Positions 5,856-15,336 of a stretch of DNA of 34,627 nucleotides are shown here, piece by piece. The notes beneath the pieces were generated by a model. It had not been told where the DNA came from. It saw only the letters and a list, made by a program, of their open reading frames with translations, and ran no database searches. Within the stretch, counting starts at the first letter, position 1; every line of letters starts with the position of its first letter. Where the stretch lies: contig JALZUR010000011.1 in the NCBI GenBank assembly GCA_023301025.1, positions 1 to 34,627 on the forward strand. The letters run 5' to 3'. A program made the position numbers and the translations under genes. Source of the stretch: Bdellovibrionales bacterium (lineage in GTDB: Bacteria; Bdellovibrionota; Bdellovibrionia; Bdellovibrionales; UBA1609).

Positions 5856-6920
5856 TTATATAGTTTCATGAAACTCATGTGACTGCCAAATTTTTTTAAT
5901 TAAAGAACTAGGTGTAACTCTTCCTAGCTCCTTTAAAGTCATATTTCTAGACCTATTGGTAGGCTTTTTGTTTTTTAGGGGCTTTACAAAATCAACAAAA
6001 ATACTGTTATTTGTAATTGAGTGTCTAAAGCTAAAAGTTTTTGGAGGTTCTTTTAGTTTAGTAAATCTACCTAAAGGAAGTAGATTCTTTTTTAAGAAAG
6101 GTTGATTTTTATGGATACAAACCTCAAGACTTTTGTTTTTGGATAAGTCTTCATCAACTTGAGTGCCTTCATTTTTATAAACCTCATATAGCCAGATCTC
6201 TTTTGGTTTAACTTGTTTTTTTATAGGTAAAATTTTTTGAAGATTCTTTTTCTTACTCATGCAGAATTGTTGAATTGGGCACAACATACATGTTGGAGAT
6301 TTTGGGGTGCAAACTGTTGCACCAAGATCCATTAAAGCTTGATTAACTTCTGAGGGTTTTTTTTCAAAGCAACAAAGTGTATTAGAAAAAACTTGTGTCT
6401 TTTTATGAAAGTCTGGCTTCCACCATTCAACAGACTCGCCAAGAAGTCGATTGTAGACCCTTAAAACATTGCCATCGACAACTCCGCACTGTTCTTCATG
6501 GCAAATGCTTGCAATGGCTGAGGAGGTGTAGGGACCTATTCCTGGAAGTTTGATAAGTTCTAATGAGTTTTTAGGAAATGTTGAGTTGTATTCTGAAACT
6601 ATAATTTTTGCGCATTTTAAAATGTTTCTAGCTCTTGAATAGTAACCTAAGCCTTGCCACGCCTCATTGACCTCTTCTTGAGTGGCTTTGCTTAATGATT
6701 TAACATTTGGCCAAAGAGATATAAATTTTTGATAGTAGGAAATTACGGCCTGAGATGTTGTTTGCTGAAGCATTATCTCAGAGATCCAAACTTTATAGGG
6801 ATCTGGAGAGTCCGAACGCCAAGGAAGCGCTCTACTGCTACATTCGTTATACCAAGACACTAAGTCTTTTGAGAGTTCAGAGTGTGTTTTTTTCGTCAAA
6901 ATCGTTAAATCCCAGTTCAA
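5856..6920 (-). CDS. mutY: A/G-specific adenine glycosylase MutY
   Basis: MutY removes adenine mispaired with 8-oxoguanine and so prevents G:C to T:A mutations. The HhH-GPD core is complete: SEIMLQQT with the catalytic Glu48, the helix-hairpin-helix LPGIGPYTSSAI (125-136), VVDGNVLRV with Asp149, and the iron-sulfur loop Cys204-x6-Cys211-x2-Cys214-x5-Cys220. The C-terminal Nudix-like 8-oxoG recognition domain (about 235-350) is short and diverged. There is no ATG near the N-terminus; a TTG at 6920 (used here) and another at 6899 are the only reasonable starts, both with weak ribosome sites. The upstream frame closes at 6950. The gene overlaps or abuts the secreted protein gene that follows. 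Confidence 0.92.
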   Translation of the reverse strand: MNWDLTILTKKTHSELSKDLVSWYNECSSRALPWRSDSPDPYKVWISEIMLQQTTSQAVISYYQKFISLWPNVKSLSKATQEEVNEAWQGLGYYSRARNILKCAKIIVSEYNSTFPKNSLELIKLPGIGPYTSSAIASICHEEQCGVVDGNVLRVYNRLLGESVEWWKPDFHKKTQVFSNTLCCFEKKPSEVNQALMDLGATVCTPKSPTCMLCPIQQFCMSKKKNLQKILPIKKQVKPKEIWLYEVYKNEGTQVDEDLSKNKSLEVCIHKNQPFLKKNLLPLGRFTKLKEPPKTFSFRHSITNNSIFVDFVKPLKNKKPTNRSRNMTLKELGRVTPSSLIKKIWQSHEFHETI

Positions 6921-6987: not shown

Positions 6988-7959
6988 ATGACAATGGCTA
7001 ATGATTCTTTTTTACCTCTAAGTGGTCGAGAAATGCCCCGTTTTGGCGGGATAAAAACCTTTTTTAGACTGCCATATATCAAACAAGACGATCCAAAGTT
7101 TAAAGAGTTGGACGTAGCACTTTTTGGACTTCCTTTTGATGGTGGTGTTTCTTATCGCCCTGGTGCTCGTTTTGCTCCATCTAAAGTTAGAGAGCTTTCT
7201 TCTTTAGGTCGTGGCTATCACATGTCTAGAAAAGAAAGTGTTTTTAACAATATTAATGTCTCAGACATTGGAGACTGTTCAGTTGTTCCTTTATCGGTTG
7301 AAAAGACCTATGCGCTCATTGAAGATCATGTGTCTAAACTTTTAAACAAGAACAAAAGATTCTTATCTGTGGGTGGAGATCATTCAACAACTCTTGGACA
7401 CTTAAGGGCTGTAAAAAAGAAACTTGGAAAACCTGTCTCACTCATTCACTTTGATGCTCATCTTGATACTTATCCAGCGGCTTGGGGCTGTGAGTACCAT
7501 CATGGCGCATTTGTAAGACACGCCATTAATGAACAGCTTGTTGATCCAGAGTCTTCTATTCAAATTGGTATACGAGGTCCACTTGCTGGACAAGCAGATT
7601 TAAAAATCAACCTAGAACACAAACTAAAGTATACAACTGTAGATGATGTAAGAAAAACTCCTGGTGGTGTCCTAGATTTCTGTAAAGATTTACCTGAGTT
7701 TTTAGATAAACCTGCTTTTTTAAGTTTTGATATCGATTGCTTAGATCCAAGCTACGCTCCAGGAACTGGCACGCCTGTCCCCGGAGGTCTTACCACCTAT
7801 GAAGTTCAAAAAATTTTACAGTCTTTGAATATTAAAAACTTAATTGGTGCCGACCTTGTAGAGATTTGTCCGCCTTATGACCCAACAGAGATAACAGCAC
7901 TTGCGGGTGTTGATATTTGTTTTGAAATCCTTTGTTTGTTTAAAAAATGCTTGGATTAA
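6988..7959 (+). CDS. speB: Ureohydrolase, agmatinase family
   Basis: This manganese enzyme family hydrolyses guanidino compounds to an amine plus urea; agmatine to putrescine is the best-known reaction. The 323-residue protein carries the whole binuclear metal site: GGDH with His132, DAHLD with Asp156, His158 and Asp160, and SFDID with Asp248 and Asp250 followed by DP. The N-terminal FDGGVSYRPGARFAP block and the YHHG segment (170-173) are typical of agmatinase, guanidinobutyrase and related members rather than arginase. Substrate cannot be read from sequence alone, so the symbol is provisional. ATG 6988 and ATG 6994 are both possible and neither has a ribosome site, so a leaderless message is possible. 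The 3' end overlaps the next gene by 13 bases, implying co-translation with the ATP-grasp/dioxygenase protein. Confidence 0.85.
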   Translation: MTMANDSFLPLSGREMPRFGGIKTFFRLPYIKQDDPKFKELDVALFGLPFDGGVSYRPGARFAPSKVRELSSLGRGYHMSRKESVFNNINVSDIGDCSVVPLSVEKTYALIEDHVSKLLNKNKRFLSVGGDHSTTLGHLRAVKKKLGKPVSLIHFDAHLDTYPAAWGCEYHHGAFVRHAINEQLVDPESSIQIGIRGPLAGQADLKINLEHKLKYTTVDDVRKTPGGVLDFCKDLPEFLDKPAFLSFDIDCLDPSYAPGTGTPVPGGLTTYEVQKILQSLNIKNLIGADLVEICPPYDPTEITALAGVDICFEILCLFKKCLD

Positions 7960-9443
7960 AATTTATGTATGGAAAAGTAAAGAATAGACTTCATCATGAA
8001 AACTGGCCATCTCCTGTCTTTTATTTGCCAGTTTTTTTGTACTATTTATACTCATCTTTTAAACACGGTGTAAGATTTAATTATTTTTCTGTTGTGAACC
8101 CAGGGCTTAAAACAGGCGGTCTTTGTGGTTTCTCCAAGTGGGAAAGTTTCAAACTTATAAATTCTAAGTACATTCCTAAAACTTTTCTTTTAAAAAGAGA
8201 AGAGGATCACAACACACTCAAAATTAAAGAGGAGATGCGAGACTTGGGTTTGAAATTCCCTGTTATTTTAAAGCCAGATTGTGGTGAAAGAGGATTTTTA
8301 GTTCACAAGCTAGAAAATCTTCTTGATTTAACAAAAGCTCTAAACCTGTATGCTGATAAAGTTGATTTTCTTATTCAAGAGTACATAGAGGGTGATTTGG
8401 AACTTGGTGTTTTTATAATTAAGAAAAATAAAAAATGGATAATCAGTTCATTGATGTCTAAAAAGTTTTTGTCTGTTGTTGGTGATGGTGTTTCTACTTT
8501 GTCTGAGTTGTGCAAGAAAGACATTAGAGCAGAAAAGTTTTTCTTAAGTGGTGTAAATAATAAAACAGTAGATATGTCAAAAATTCTTAAAAAAGATGAA
8601 TCTATGGTGTTAGAGCACATTGGAAATCACTGCAGAGGTACGGAATTTATCAATGAGATGAATCATAATGATGAAAACTTAAGAGAAGTCTTTTCTGGTG
8701 TTGTTGAAAAACAAACTGATCTAAATTATATAAGACTAGATATTCGTACTAAAAGTTGGGATCATTTAAACGATGGTGATTTTAAAGTTTTAGAGGTTAA
8801 TGGAGTTTCAGCTGAGCCGGGACACATATACGACACAAACTTTACTTTAACAGAAGCCTATAAAGATTTATTTCACCATTGGATGGAGATGTCAGAGATT
8901 GCTGGTGAGCAAATCAACAAGGGTTTTGAGCCTGAAAAGTTAGCTGACACAATTAAAGATGTATTCAGTCATCTTGCAAACAAAAAGAGGCTCATGAGCT
9001 TACAAAAACAAGATGAAGATGAATGTTTATTTTCTCCACCAGCTGATATTGATACTCTTTCAATTGATGAGGTTATGGAACATGCAAAAAACTCTTTACC
9101 TGAAAACATAGAACCTTTATTTGAAAAATCTCTAGATTTAGGTGGATATTTAAGATTCTGCATGTACAAAGATTCTAACTATGAAGTTGTTCTTTGCAAG
9201 TGGAAGCCTCATAAAGGCTCTGATGAGCATGATCATAAAGGCAAAGACTGTTGTTTCGAGGTTTTGTCAGGTGAAGTGAACGAATACCGAAAAGTTGGTG
9301 ATGAGACAATTGTTTTGAATAAAAATTCAAGAGGTTATATCTGTGACAAACAAGGCCCGCACATTATGTCTAATAAAACAGATATAGATGCAATCACATT
9401 ACATATCTATAAAAATAAAGCTCTTTTAGACACTCAATATTAA
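7947..9443 (+). CDS. Fusion of ATP-grasp domain and cysteine dioxygenase-type cupin
   Basis: The N-terminal half (about 1-315) is an ATP-grasp ligase-like domain: FPVILKPDCGERG (104-116) with Lys109, IQEYIEGDLE (143-152), RLDIR with Asp265, and LEVNG with Glu283 and Asn285 as likely Mg ligands. It begins with a hydrophobic FYLPVFLYYLY patch seen in D-Ala-D-Ala ligase-like proteins of unknown role. The C-terminal part (about 385-498) matches thiol dioxygenases: Y401-x-R403 (substrate-carboxylate Arg), HDH with His428 and His430, Cys435 exactly five residues on (the Cys93 position that can form the Cys-Tyr cofactor), His472, and THIY-like T484-L-H486-I-Y488. Arg rather than Gln at 403 points to cysteine over 3-mercaptopropionate. 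So the C-terminus should oxidise cysteine to cysteine sulfinate; the ligase substrate is unknown. ATG 7965 is an alternative start. Confidence 0.85.
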   Translation: MLGLKFMYGKVKNRLHHENWPSPVFYLPVFLYYLYSSFKHGVRFNYFSVVNPGLKTGGLCGFSKWESFKLINSKYIPKTFLLKREEDHNTLKIKEEMRDLGLKFPVILKPDCGERGFLVHKLENLLDLTKALNLYADKVDFLIQEYIEGDLELGVFIIKKNKKWIISSLMSKKFLSVVGDGVSTLSELCKKDIRAEKFFLSGVNNKTVDMSKILKKDESMVLEHIGNHCRGTEFINEMNHNDENLREVFSGVVEKQTDLNYIRLDIRTKSWDHLNDGDFKVLEVNGVSAEPGHIYDTNFTLTEAYKDLFHHWMEMSEIAGEQINKGFEPEKLADTIKDVFSHLANKKRLMSLQKQDEDECLFSPPADIDTLSIDEVMEHAKNSLPENIEPLFEKSLDLGGYLRFCMYKDSNYEVVLCKWKPHKGSDEHDHKGKDCCFEVLSGEVNEYRKVGDETIVLNKNSRGYICDKQGPHIMSNKTDIDAITLHIYKNKALLDTQY

Positions 9444-9463
9444 AATAAAAAAAGGCACGCCCT

Positions 9464-10876
9464 GTGAATTTAGATCTATTCAATACTATACTTGAAAAAG
9501 CCTACACTTTAAAAGATGAAAAAAAAATAACTGATCCAAAAACTGCACGTCAGCTAAGAGGTAGTTTTGATTTTGAGTTAACAGAAACACCCATGAAAGA
9601 TATGGGTCAAAAAAAAGAACTACTACTAAACATCATTAAAGAATCGGTTAACACTCAAAGTCCAAGATTTTTAAATCAACTCTATGGAGGGACTAGTGAT
9701 GTAACATGGTTAGGGGAGCTTCTAACTGCAGTTTTGAACACTTCCATGGCTACCTATGAAATAGCGCCTTTGTTTACCTTGATGGAAAAAGAGCTGATTA
9801 AAGCCATGAACGATAAAGTTTGTTTTAAAGAAATGGATGGCATCATGGTTCCTGGTGGAAGTTACGCCAATATGTATGCTATCCATTGTGCGCGTCTTGC
9901 AAAAGATAAAGAGAATAAAACAAAAGGTCTTTTTGGTAGAAAACCATACGTTGCTTTTGTGTCAAAAGCTGCTCACTACTCAACAGAAAAAGCGATGAAT
10001 CTCTTAGGCTTTGGCGTTGAAAGACTTATCACAGTTAACACAGACAGTGATCATAGGATGAAGATAGACTCTTTAGAAGAAGCCATAGTAAAATCACAAC
10101 AAGATGGCTTTGAGCCTTTTTGTATTGTCTCAACTGCGGGTACTACTGTGTGGGGGAGCTTTGATCCTATTTTAGAGATACAAAATCTTTCAACAAAGTA
10201 TAACCTTTGGCATCACGTTGATGCGGCTTGGGGTGGTCTTGCTTTGTGGTCTGATAAAAAAGACGAAAGTTTTTATAAAGGCTTAGACCAAGTTGACTCA
10301 ATCACTTTAGATTTTCATAAACTCATGGCCTCCTCTTTAACAAAAGCAATTTACATCTGTTCAAGACCTGAGATTTTTTATGAAGCCTCCTCGGGCGGTG
10401 GCTCTGAATACATATTTCACTCTAAAAAAGAAGACGAGATGAATGATACAGGAGTTTATGCGCTTCAGTGTGGTAGAAAAGTAGACTCATTATCTCTATG
10501 GCTTCAGTGGAAGTTTAATGGTGGAGAGCAGTTTTCTAATAAGTTTAAAGAGTTAGAAAAAGTAAGAGACTATACGGTTGATAAAATAAAAGAAAAACCT
10601 GCGGACTTTAAAATTTTACATGATCCTGAGTTTATGAATATATGCTTTCAAGTGCTTCCAAAAGATTTCGATAAAGACAGCCCAATCCCATATTCTTATA
10701 ACCAAGAGATTAGGTCTGAACTTATGAAAAGGGGAAATTTTATGGTGAACTTTTCTAAGAGTGAAGAACACGGTACATTTTTTAGACTGGTTCTAAATCA
10801 CTGGCTTGTAAGTGAGAGTATTATTGATGAATTTTTAAAAGAGCTTTTAGATATTAAAGAAGCTCTTTTAAAATAA
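9464..10876 (+). CDS. PLP-dependent decarboxylase, cysteine sulfinate/glutamate decarboxylase type
   Basis: A group II amino acid decarboxylase of 470 residues. It reads along its whole length like animal CSAD/GAD: SPRFLNQLYGG (66-76), NTSMATYEIAPLFTLME (92-108), VPGGSYANMYA, His171 in the HYS segment that stacks on PLP, HVDAAWGG with Asp253, DFHKLMASS with the Schiff-base Lys286, and QCGRKVDSLSLWLQWK. Because the gene upstream encodes a cysteine dioxygenase domain, I infer cysteine sulfinate (or cysteate) as substrate, giving hypotaurine (or taurine). Aspartate to beta-alanine or glutamate to GABA remain possible. The GTG start at 9464 lies 20 bases after the previous stop, with a modest AAAGG site. 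It is the last gene of the operon. Confidence 0.85.
   Translation: MNLDLFNTILEKAYTLKDEKKITDPKTARQLRGSFDFELTETPMKDMGQKKELLLNIIKESVNTQSPRFLNQLYGGTSDVTWLGELLTAVLNTSMATYEIAPLFTLMEKELIKAMNDKVCFKEMDGIMVPGGSYANMYAIHCARLAKDKENKTKGLFGRKPYVAFVSKAAHYSTEKAMNLLGFGVERLITVNTDSDHRMKIDSLEEAIVKSQQDGFEPFCIVSTAGTTVWGSFDPILEIQNLSTKYNLWHHVDAAWGGLALWSDKKDESFYKGLDQVDSITLDFHKLMASSLTKAIYICSRPEIFYEASSGGGSEYIFHSKKEDEMNDTGVYALQCGRKVDSLSLWLQWKFNGGEQFSNKFKELEKVRDYTVDKIKEKPADFKILHDPEFMNICFQVLPKDFDKDSPIPYSYNQEIRSELMKRGNFMVNFSKSEEHGTFFRLVLNHWLVSESIIDEFLKELLDIKEALLK
10837..10869 (+). terminator. Candidate terminator hairpin inside the end of the decarboxylase gene
   Basis: A perfect 10-base-pair inverted repeat (AAAAGAGCTT / AAGCTCTTTT) spaced by 13 bases, lying in the last codons of the decarboxylase gene. 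The right arm ends in four T but is followed by A-rich sequence, so termination strength is doubtful. It is the only hairpin at the 3' end of the operon before the convergent gene. Confidence 0.4.
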
Positions 10877-13458: not shown

Positions 13459-15213
13459 CTAAAATTGTGTTACGTGCCAGTCGATTTTATTTTTGTGAGA
13501 GAGAAACAGACTTTGCCAATGAGAGCCTTCTCGTTTCATCAGAACTCTAAAGGAGCTGTTACCTGGTTTTATCTCATGTTTGTCTTTGTGTTTCTTCTTG
13601 GTTGTGAGGTTTCTTATTCCGTTTCTACCATTTTCTGCAGTAAAGCCATTTAGTAGAGGTTGTATAAAAATACTTTGTCTCAAGTTGTGTTTTTTTAGAT
13701 CATTAAGAGTTTCTTCATTAAAAATAATTGTCTGTTCAGGCTTTTCAGGGTGTCTTAAGAAACTAAAAGAGTATAAAACCCCAGGTTCAAGATTGGCATC
13801 TGCAGTAAGTGGTATGGCGCCAGAAGTGTTTTTTGGTATCAAATCTTCTTTGTCTGAAAGACTTTGGCTTTTTAAGGTTTCATCATTTGTATTGCTTTTA
13901 TTATTTCTTTTTTTTGGGTTCTTACGAGTTGAAAAACTGTCTTTTCTTTGATTTGGATACCAGTCTTGGTTGTATACAATTTGTAAACTATCAGGGGTTT
14001 TTTTCTGCGAGCTTTTAGGCTCTTCTTTATCACTTGTCGACAGTGTTTTATAGGTTTCACTTTTTAGAGGTAGAAGAGTTCTTTTTGCACTTGTCACTAA
14101 TGCATCGATAGTTTCAGTGGCTGTAAAGCGTTTTTTAACATCAAAAATGTAACTGTCCATAAAGTCTATAAAAGACTCTATATTTCTCTGATCAACTTGA
14201 TAGTCTATCATTACTGACTCAAGAGCGTCTAAAAAAAACAATCTAAAATCAAAATCACTTGATTTTAGTATCATAAGTTTATCTAAGGTGTCATTGTAGC
14301 TTTCTGAAACACTGTAAAGTTGATTTTTTATATTTTTATCGTTGTTGTATGCTCTAAGCTCTTCTAAAATTGTTTCGTAGGTTTTTCCTGAGTCTGCTTC
14401 AATTATTCCAAACACCTCCTTTAGAGTAATTGATAGAGCATTGCCAATAAAAACTTTAAGGCGTGTAAGAGATTTGAGGTTTTTTTCTATTTGAATCTTT
14501 TTTGATGATTTAATTTCATTAAAGACTTTTACAGTGCTAGGACTTCTTTGTATTGTAGATTTCTCTTCAGCTTCATAGTCCAAAAAAATTTTTCTAAAGT
14601 TAGAATCATTTATTGTGTTTGACCATTGTCTCCGATTTTCTAAAGTCTGTAAAAAGCCTTCAAGAATTTTGGTTGATCTCTCACTTGGAACAAGACTGTT
14701 CTTATCAAATTCCATGCTTCTGTTAGTTTTATATTGAATCCTTAAACTACTTTGTGTGATGAGGGTTGCTGTATAAAAAATTTCTTTTTCCGACAGATAT
14801 GCTGAATCTAAGTTTCGTTTTAGCGCAAAATAAGCATGTTTGATCTTTTCTTCAGCGGTATCTTTAACTAAGATGCTAGGGGCGTTGTCCCAGTACTTTG
14901 AAAATATATCTAGCTCTTCAGTTGTTGGTGGCATGAATTTAAAATTGTAAATTCTAAATGAGTTTCGAGTTAGGTCAATTAGTACTGGATCTCTTATTGC
15001 TTCAAAAAGAGAAGCAAGTGTTTTTAAAAGTTCAGCATGTCCACTTTCGCCAAGCACCGTACTGGTTCTGCTTTTTACCTTCAATTCGGATGGAAAGTTT
15101 ATGACTTCAGATGTATTCTTTAAACTTAAAAGATCAAGGCAGGTTTGATTTGGGTATGCTTTTGCGACGCTAAAAAATAAACATGTATTTATGAAAAGTC
15201 TAAGAAGCGTCAT
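13459..15213 (-). CDS. Large secreted protein of unknown function, C-terminus loosely RelE/ParE-like
   Basis: The ATG at 15213 is chosen over one 15 codons upstream because GGAG lies 9 bases before it and the protein then begins with a signal peptide (MTLLRLFINTCLFFSVAKA, cleavage before YPNQ). Numbering below is from that start, 584 residues. Residues 40-390 look mostly helical with no motif I know. Residues 400-470 are low complexity, rich in Lys, Ser and Asn. The last 100 residues differ: GIRNL, then KHEIKPGNSSFRVLMKR, then SLFLSHKNK, an order of turns and strands reminiscent of RelE/ParE/HigB toxins (G-hydrophobic-KL, ElR, yRvlY, LLhgF-KK). That similarity is weak. Function is unknown; export plus a possible nuclease-like tail suggests an extracellular or periplasmic effector. 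No gene with an antitoxin look lies next to it. Confidence 0.75.
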   Translation of the reverse strand: MTLLRLFINTCLFFSVAKAYPNQTCLDLLSLKNTSEVINFPSELKVKSRTSTVLGESGHAELLKTLASLFEAIRDPVLIDLTRNSFRIYNFKFMPPTTEELDIFSKYWDNAPSILVKDTAEEKIKHAYFALKRNLDSAYLSEKEIFYTATLITQSSLRIQYKTNRSMEFDKNSLVPSERSTKILEGFLQTLENRRQWSNTINDSNFRKIFLDYEAEEKSTIQRSPSTVKVFNEIKSSKKIQIEKNLKSLTRLKVFIGNALSITLKEVFGIIEADSGKTYETILEELRAYNNDKNIKNQLYSVSESYNDTLDKLMILKSSDFDFRLFFLDALESVMIDYQVDQRNIESFIDFMDSYIFDVKKRFTATETIDALVTSAKRTLLPLKSETYKTLSTSDKEEPKSSQKKTPDSLQIVYNQDWYPNQRKDSFSTRKNPKKRNNKSNTNDETLKSQSLSDKEDLIPKNTSGAIPLTADANLEPGVLYSFSFLRHPEKPEQTIIFNEETLNDLKKHNLRQSIFIQPLLNGFTAENGRNGIRNLTTKKKHKDKHEIKPGNSSFRVLMKREGSHWQSLFLSHKNKIDWHVTQF

Positions 15214-15336
15214 TTTGCTTAACTCCGGCTTGATAATCTGTATTTGAGTCCTCAACATACAAAATTTTGTGTTTGGAATTTACTGATGATTTATAAATTG
15301 TAAAAAATTTAAGTCAAACAAAGCTTTAAATGCATC

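Follow-up and report, generated by a model that had tools for sequence, protein, structure and literature searches.

A conserved gene cassette coupling a cysteine dioxygenase-type enzyme and a decarboxylase to an ATP-grasp ligase in a Bdellovibrionales bacterium and its relatives: a possible route to (hypo)taurine conjugates

Gene content of the locus

We analysed a stretch of 34,627 nt from a Bdellovibrionales bacterium (GCA_023301025.1, JALZUR010000011.1); this whole stretch is called the window in the following. Its forward strand carries three closely packed genes. They code for a ureohydrolase of the agmatinase type (6988-7959, 323 aa), for a protein which joins an ATP-grasp ligase domain to a cysteine dioxygenase (CDO)-type thiol dioxygenase domain in a single open frame (7947-9443, 498 aa) and for a PLP group II decarboxylase resembling cysteine sulfinate decarboxylase (CSAD) and GADL1 (9464-10876, 470 aa, GTG start). 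The ureohydrolase and fusion genes overlap by 13 bases, and the decarboxylase gene starts 20 bp after the fusion gene. A preliminary description had placed the three genes at these coordinates, and the reading frames and Pfam matches bear this out; likewise the residues named there are all present, in the fusion Y401, R403, H428, H430, C435, H472 and Y488 and in the decarboxylase K286. A mutY-like gene on the reverse strand (5856-6920) is a conserved neighbour in related genera and marks the locus, with synteny in L034 and L150 and, together with the ureohydrolase, in L164-L167. Elsewhere in the window, a 599-aa protein is encoded on the reverse strand (13459-15258) which has no Pfam match at 1e-5.

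The preliminary description counted the ureohydrolase among the members of the system, and this part of it does not hold. The protein (Arginase PF00491, 3.5e-83) reaches 198.4 bits against the NCBI equivalog TIGR01230, agmatinase, whose cut-off is 174.3, and its orthologues (58-64%) in G020, G069, G081 and G104 are neighbours of mutY at loci lacking the cassette. None of the other cassettes contains an orthologue, and the arginase found in L055 is a different one. In the window, in G015 (L034) and in G002 (L150) the decarboxylase is found at the same mutY locus. In our view the ureohydrolase is probably an older neighbour outside the conserved cassette. We also considered it as a supplier of ornithine and dropped this idea, as it is of the agmatinase type and a mutY neighbour.

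The ATP-grasp half of the fusion

The ligase domain (residues 1-348, 7947-8990, forward strand) has an N-terminal helix and the family motif E-[NFY]-W-P. Neither Pfam nor NCBIfam has a model for this family. A RimK ATP-grasp match to residues 64-149 is weak and below the Pfam cut-off, all matches stay far under the NCBIfam cut-offs, and the domain does not reach the curated family scores of RimK, cyanophycin synthetase, Ddl or LysX. The AlphaFold (AF2) model has a mean pLDDT of 91.5. With Foldseek, cyanophycin synthetase is its nearest relative (E 6e-11, probability 1.00), and glutathione synthetase and D-Ala-D-Ala ligase are found as well; a sequence profile of 59 relatives points to the same ATP-grasp ligases as the fold search. 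The motifs K109-P-D-x-G-E-R-G, R263-x-D265 and E283-x-N285 are invariant or nearly so in the 59 relatives, the exception being E114, where either E or Q is found.

Cyanophycin synthetase, glutathione synthetase and D-Ala-D-Ala ligase are amide-bond ligases and share the ATP-grasp fold and the catalytic motifs with the window protein. However, the identity to them is about 11-19% with TM-scores of 0.32-0.55, and the N-terminal segment with E-[NFY]-W-P, which is only moderately hydrophobic, is the window family's own. Motifs and predicted fold suggest that the ATP-grasp half is a ligase of the amide-forming type from an uncharacterised family, and its product would be an amide. The peptide-ligase operons of PMC2922099 were also considered and do not match, as their cupins differ.

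The dioxygenase half of the fusion

The second domain (residues 371-498, 9057-9443, forward strand) matches CDO_I (PF05995) on residues 394-489 with 9.8e-7 and 28.9 bits, the Pfam cut-off being 23. The set of CDO residues is complete with the three-histidine metal site H428/H430/H472, the carboxylate-binding R403 and the Cys-Tyr pair C435/Y488. To the residues listed in the preliminary description H486 can be added, the equivalent of CDO His155. The AlphaFold (AF2) model of this half (pLDDT 83.6) has a cupin fold; its matches include generic cupins and, in the PDB, the Bacillus subtilis CDO with bound cysteine. The B. subtilis CDO YubC (PDB 4qm9, PF05995) and the window domain have the cupin fold, the three histidines and the equivalents of Arg60 and Cys93/Tyr157 in common, whereas the window domain is fused behind an ATP-grasp ligase. 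By Pfam score and residues we assign this half to the cysteine dioxygenase type and predict that it oxidises cysteine.

The decarboxylase

The Pyridoxal_deC match (PF00282, 1.6e-63) and the PLP lysine K286 point to the fold of the PLP group II decarboxylases. The best solved relatives in the PDB are CSADs (E 3.6e-82), slightly ahead of GAD1 and GADL1. At two positions which we take to determine the selectivity of CSAD, GADL1 and GAD, the window enzyme has Tyr74 and Ser94 and follows the Tyr/Ser pattern of GADL1, compared with Phe/Ser in CSAD and Ser/Asn in GAD. The Ser/Asn pattern is found in none of the aligned cassette sequences, so that a GAD identity of the cassette decarboxylases is unlikely. 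The animal enzymes CSAD, GADL1 and GAD (PDB 6zek, 6enz, 3vp6) share the PLP lysine and align almost over the full length with E about 1e-76 to 1e-82. The window enzyme differs from CSAD in having Met-Ala in place of Gln-Tyr and, unlike the animal enzymes, clusters with stand-alone bacterial decarboxylases. In the tree it groups with the stand-alone enzymes of G019 and G214 (about 50% identity) and then with the mutY-locus enzymes of L034 and L150. This grouping makes the substrate less certain than one would conclude from the motifs; we regard the enzyme as CSAD/GADL1-like with cysteine sulfinate as its putative substrate.

A conserved cassette within the phylum

Scanning the genome contigs with the single protein gave no relatives; these came from profile searches. 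In a comparison set of 369 genomes from one phylum (probably Bdellovibrionota), a profile search found the ATP-grasp family in 27 genomes. The decarboxylase adjoins the ATP-grasp gene in 23 of the 27 loci, and a CDO-type domain is located beside or fused to the ATP-grasp protein of the cassette in 18. Counted anywhere in the genome, the decarboxylase is present in 25/27 carriers and in 49/342 of the other genomes (Fisher p 2e-17, kinship ignored). In 15 carriers the ATP-grasp domain is fused to a VTT/DedA domain, and in 7 such a domain is encoded by a separate neighbour (22/27 in total); the window cassette has no VTT beside it. Genes for YHS and DoxX proteins often accompany the cassette, and sigma factors or MsrA/MsrB occur at some loci. 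In the alignment, the CDO-like domains of the relatives all have the three histidines and the His-x-Tyr, and most have the cysteine.

Many of these components are tightly linked. CDO/decarboxylase fusions are found in 10 relatives and a DoxX/YHS fusion in L047. In L047, L049 and L052 there are three separate genes in the order ATP-grasp, CDO, decarboxylase; the first two overlap by 4 bases in L047 and L052, and the last two by 4 and 14 bases, respectively. The run in L047 (G167) comprises six genes with overlaps of 1-4 bases: ATP-grasp, CDO, decarboxylase, DoxX-YHS, VTT and a PlsC-type acyltransferase. Since the ATP-grasp and CDO genes adjoin in the relatives, the window fusion joins proteins which are neighbours elsewhere.

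The preliminary description had suggested looking for further proteins with both domains and for their neighbours. Such a comparison reveals that the gene association is conserved and that the ATP-grasp/CDO fusion itself is seen in the window alone, with no second instance among the 369 genomes. This singularity would also be explained if two adjacent genes of a real operon had been joined by an error of assembly or sequencing; in L047 and L052, where the two genes overlap by 4 bases, a small frame change would fuse them. The window gene, however, has an uninterrupted frame without internal stops and a plausible linker, and we consider an error of this kind very improbable. In the tree of the ATP-grasp family, the window protein is placed with L034 on a long branch, a position flagged as a possible long-branch artefact.

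A CDO-decarboxylase fusion or pair also exists in genomes in which the ATP-grasp family was not found, for instance in G038 (L156:6578-8245) and G009 (L159:5920-7880). Such cases would fit an explanation in which CDO and decarboxylase produce hypotaurine or taurine that stays free, while the ATP-grasp half serves an unrelated or regulatory purpose. We regard this as decidedly unlikely in view of the 23 ATP-grasp genes adjoining a decarboxylase, the window fusion and the tight overlaps elsewhere.

The cassette is real, conserved and probably undescribed, at least in the literature searched. On sequence grounds, the window carries a variant of it which consists of known enzyme kinds in a new arrangement and a member of an uncharacterised ligase family.

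Some loci deviate from this scheme. In L033:6879-7376, L048:7727-8197 and L045:6980-7543 a different HxH cupin replaces the CDO between ATP-grasp and decarboxylase, and the two of these cupins that were searched have no Pfam match. At L035:1102-4382 (G016) an EgtB-like ergothioneine enzyme is encoded immediately upstream of CDO and decarboxylase. Genes for the methionine sulfoxide reductases MsrB and MsrA lie within the cassette at L050:7885-9020 and L051:4363-5498, which hints at oxidative stress.

Acyltransferase genes

Some of the cassettes include acyltransferase genes. The run in L053 (G259) consists of CDO, an OlsB-like GNAT (PF13444), decarboxylase and PlsC; in L055 (G262) an arginase, PlsC and GNAT are found near the decarboxylase and CDO; and in L043 (G081) a GNAT follows the CDO-decarboxylase fusion. 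PF13444 (OlsB/GlsB-type) is present in 24/27 carriers and in 183/342 other genomes (Fisher p 2e-4, kinship ignored), and adjoins an arginase-family gene in seven carriers. In three carriers (G167, G216, G269) the GNAT was not found, one of them having PlsC in its operon. The window genome has, by homology only, an OlsB-like GNAT at C46 and an OlsA-like PlsC at C47 (5e-48 to the cassette PlsC), both unlinked to the cassette. A further match of this OlsB-like GNAT (L140:6997-7824, reverse strand) is the N-acyl amino acid synthase FeeM.

Relatives in Bacteroidota

In named genomes the ATP-grasp family has 545 confirmed relatives, and the best 80 of the 545 are almost all from Bacteroidota. The neighbourhoods there contain YHS, DoxX, a 162-aa protein, TANGO2 and a LysE-type gene, without CDO or decarboxylase. 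In L093:6320-10658, and similarly in L061-L139, AhpC/TSA, YHS, DoxX, the 162-aa protein, TANGO2 and the LysE-type gene stand in a row. By eye the 162-aa protein looks DinB-like; it has no Pfam match. A close CSAD was found in none of the 14 Bacteroidota carrier genomes checked. As these carriers have neither CDO nor a close CSAD, hypotaurine would not be the general substrate of the ATP-grasp family.

Discussion

We suggest that the cassette attaches hypotaurine or taurine to the carboxylate of a lipid. The CDO half would oxidise cysteine to cysteine sulfinate, from which the decarboxylase would form hypotaurine. The N-terminal segment could anchor the ATP-grasp half to the membrane, a role that would fall to the fused VTT/DedA domain in the relatives. 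The ATP-grasp half would activate a carboxylate as acyl-phosphate, and the amine of hypotaurine, or of taurine if an oxidation comes first, would then form an amide bond with the activated carboxylate. N-acyl amino acids, and ornithine lipid in particular, would be the likeliest source of the carboxylate, and the product would be a cerilipin-like lipid of ornithine and (hypo)taurine. Two points make ornithine lipid our preferred partner: several genomes have OlsB/OlsA-like genes and arginases grouped with the cassette, and an ornithine-taurine lipid is known in nature. We put the probability of an amide link between (hypo)taurine and a lipid carboxylate, foremost that of ornithine lipid, at a little over one third.

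The enzyme identities are taken from sequence and predicted fold, and from these together with the gene neighbourhoods we infer substrates, amide product, membrane location and lipid. In favour of this lipid conjugate are the fusions and overlaps which chain ATP-grasp to CDO, CDO to decarboxylase, VTT to ATP-grasp and DoxX to YHS, the fold of an amide-forming ATP-grasp ligase and the catalytic residues of CDO and decarboxylase. Against it we count the carriers lacking a GNAT, the unlinked GNAT and PlsC and the missing VTT in the window, the Bacteroidota pattern, the grouping of the decarboxylase, the modest hydrophobicity of the N-terminal segment and the shared ancestry behind the Fisher counts; moreover, a hypotaurine oxidase was not identified. 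Of the pathway put forward in the preliminary description, the CDO plus CSAD-like route to hypotaurine and its coupling to an ATP-grasp ligase stand, the ureohydrolase being left out. The idea of a conjugate is likewise supported; among the relatives, the linkage between CDO, decarboxylase and ATP-grasp is conserved.

The conjugate could also be small and soluble, for instance a dipeptide-like compound in which hypotaurine or beta-alanine is linked to an amino acid, and could serve as osmolyte or antioxidant in a logic similar to carnosine. The nearest folds are indeed peptide ligases, the GADL1-like Tyr/Ser of the window decarboxylase also fits aspartate, the methionine sulfoxide reductase, DoxX and YHS genes of some cassettes suggest redox stress, and a LysE-type gene adjoins the ligase at the Bacteroidota loci. 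But membrane chemistry is favoured by the fused or adjacent VTT/DedA domain in most carriers and by the cassette acyltransferases, and the linked CDO favours the sulfinate over aspartate. A soluble product appears rather unlikely to us.

It is further conceivable that N-acylation is the task of the ATP-grasp enzyme itself, which would join a fatty acid, 3-hydroxylated or not, to hypotaurine, with the PlsC/OlsA-like enzyme adding a second chain. The result would be a (hypo)taurine acyloxyacyl lipid without ornithine. This would suit G167, where ATP-grasp, CDO, decarboxylase and PlsC lie together in an operon and an OlsB-like GNAT was not found in the genome. A Legionella ATP-grasp enzyme joining a fatty acid and histidine is cited in PMC11631085, and planctomycetes use a GH3-like enzyme in place of OlsB (PMC12493201). 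Roseobacters make a sulfur-containing aminolipid by the SalA pathway (PMC8319176) which resembles the lipids proposed here in its amino-sulfonate head, its acyl chains and its PlsC-like acyltransferase; its head group is, however, a C3 sulfonate, and the passages covered of PMC8319176 mention no CDO, CSAD or ATP-grasp. Direct acylation would leave without a role the GNAT which most carriers possess and which lies in or beside the cassette in L043, L053 and L055, and we hold it to be unlikely.

An ornithine lipid conjugated to (hypo)taurine, our preferred product, has a counterpart in cerilipin, the ornithine-taurine lipid of Gluconobacter cerinus (PMC4484230, PMC12493201, PMC6669457). Cerilipin exists in nature, whereas the lipid of the window organism is proposed from its genes. 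Within the text covered of the literature searched, no ligase is named that joins the amine in cerilipin, and for flavolipin PMC10191378 states that the enzyme of the joining step is unknown. Both lipids have in common with the proposed product that they are aminolipids whose amino-acid carboxylate bears a second amine. One might speculate that the ATP-grasp family provides the missing enzymes for this step in general. It would then add (hypo)taurine to ornithine lipid in Bdellovibrionota, with its own supply by CDO and CSAD and a lipid-moving VTT/DedA domain, and another amine in Bacteroidota. The odds of this wider scheme are poor.

Should the product really be a sulfur-containing aminolipid, the cassette would offer a candidate for a ligation step to which the literature searched assigns no enzyme, and it would suggest what a large ATP-grasp family does (more than 500 relatives in one scan).

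Most of what is known about taurine-type metabolism comes from animals, and examples from bacteria are few; a cassette which ties taurine-type synthesis to a probably membrane-associated ligase would reveal a bacterial use for it. A prokaryotic CDO-CSAD taurine route is that of Synechococcus sp. PCC 7335 (Agnello 2013, cited in PMC8153620). There as in the window a CDO is followed by a CSAD-like decarboxylase; in contrast, the route of the window is coupled to an ATP-grasp ligase, and the relatives of the window cassette add VTT, DoxX, YHS and acyltransferases.
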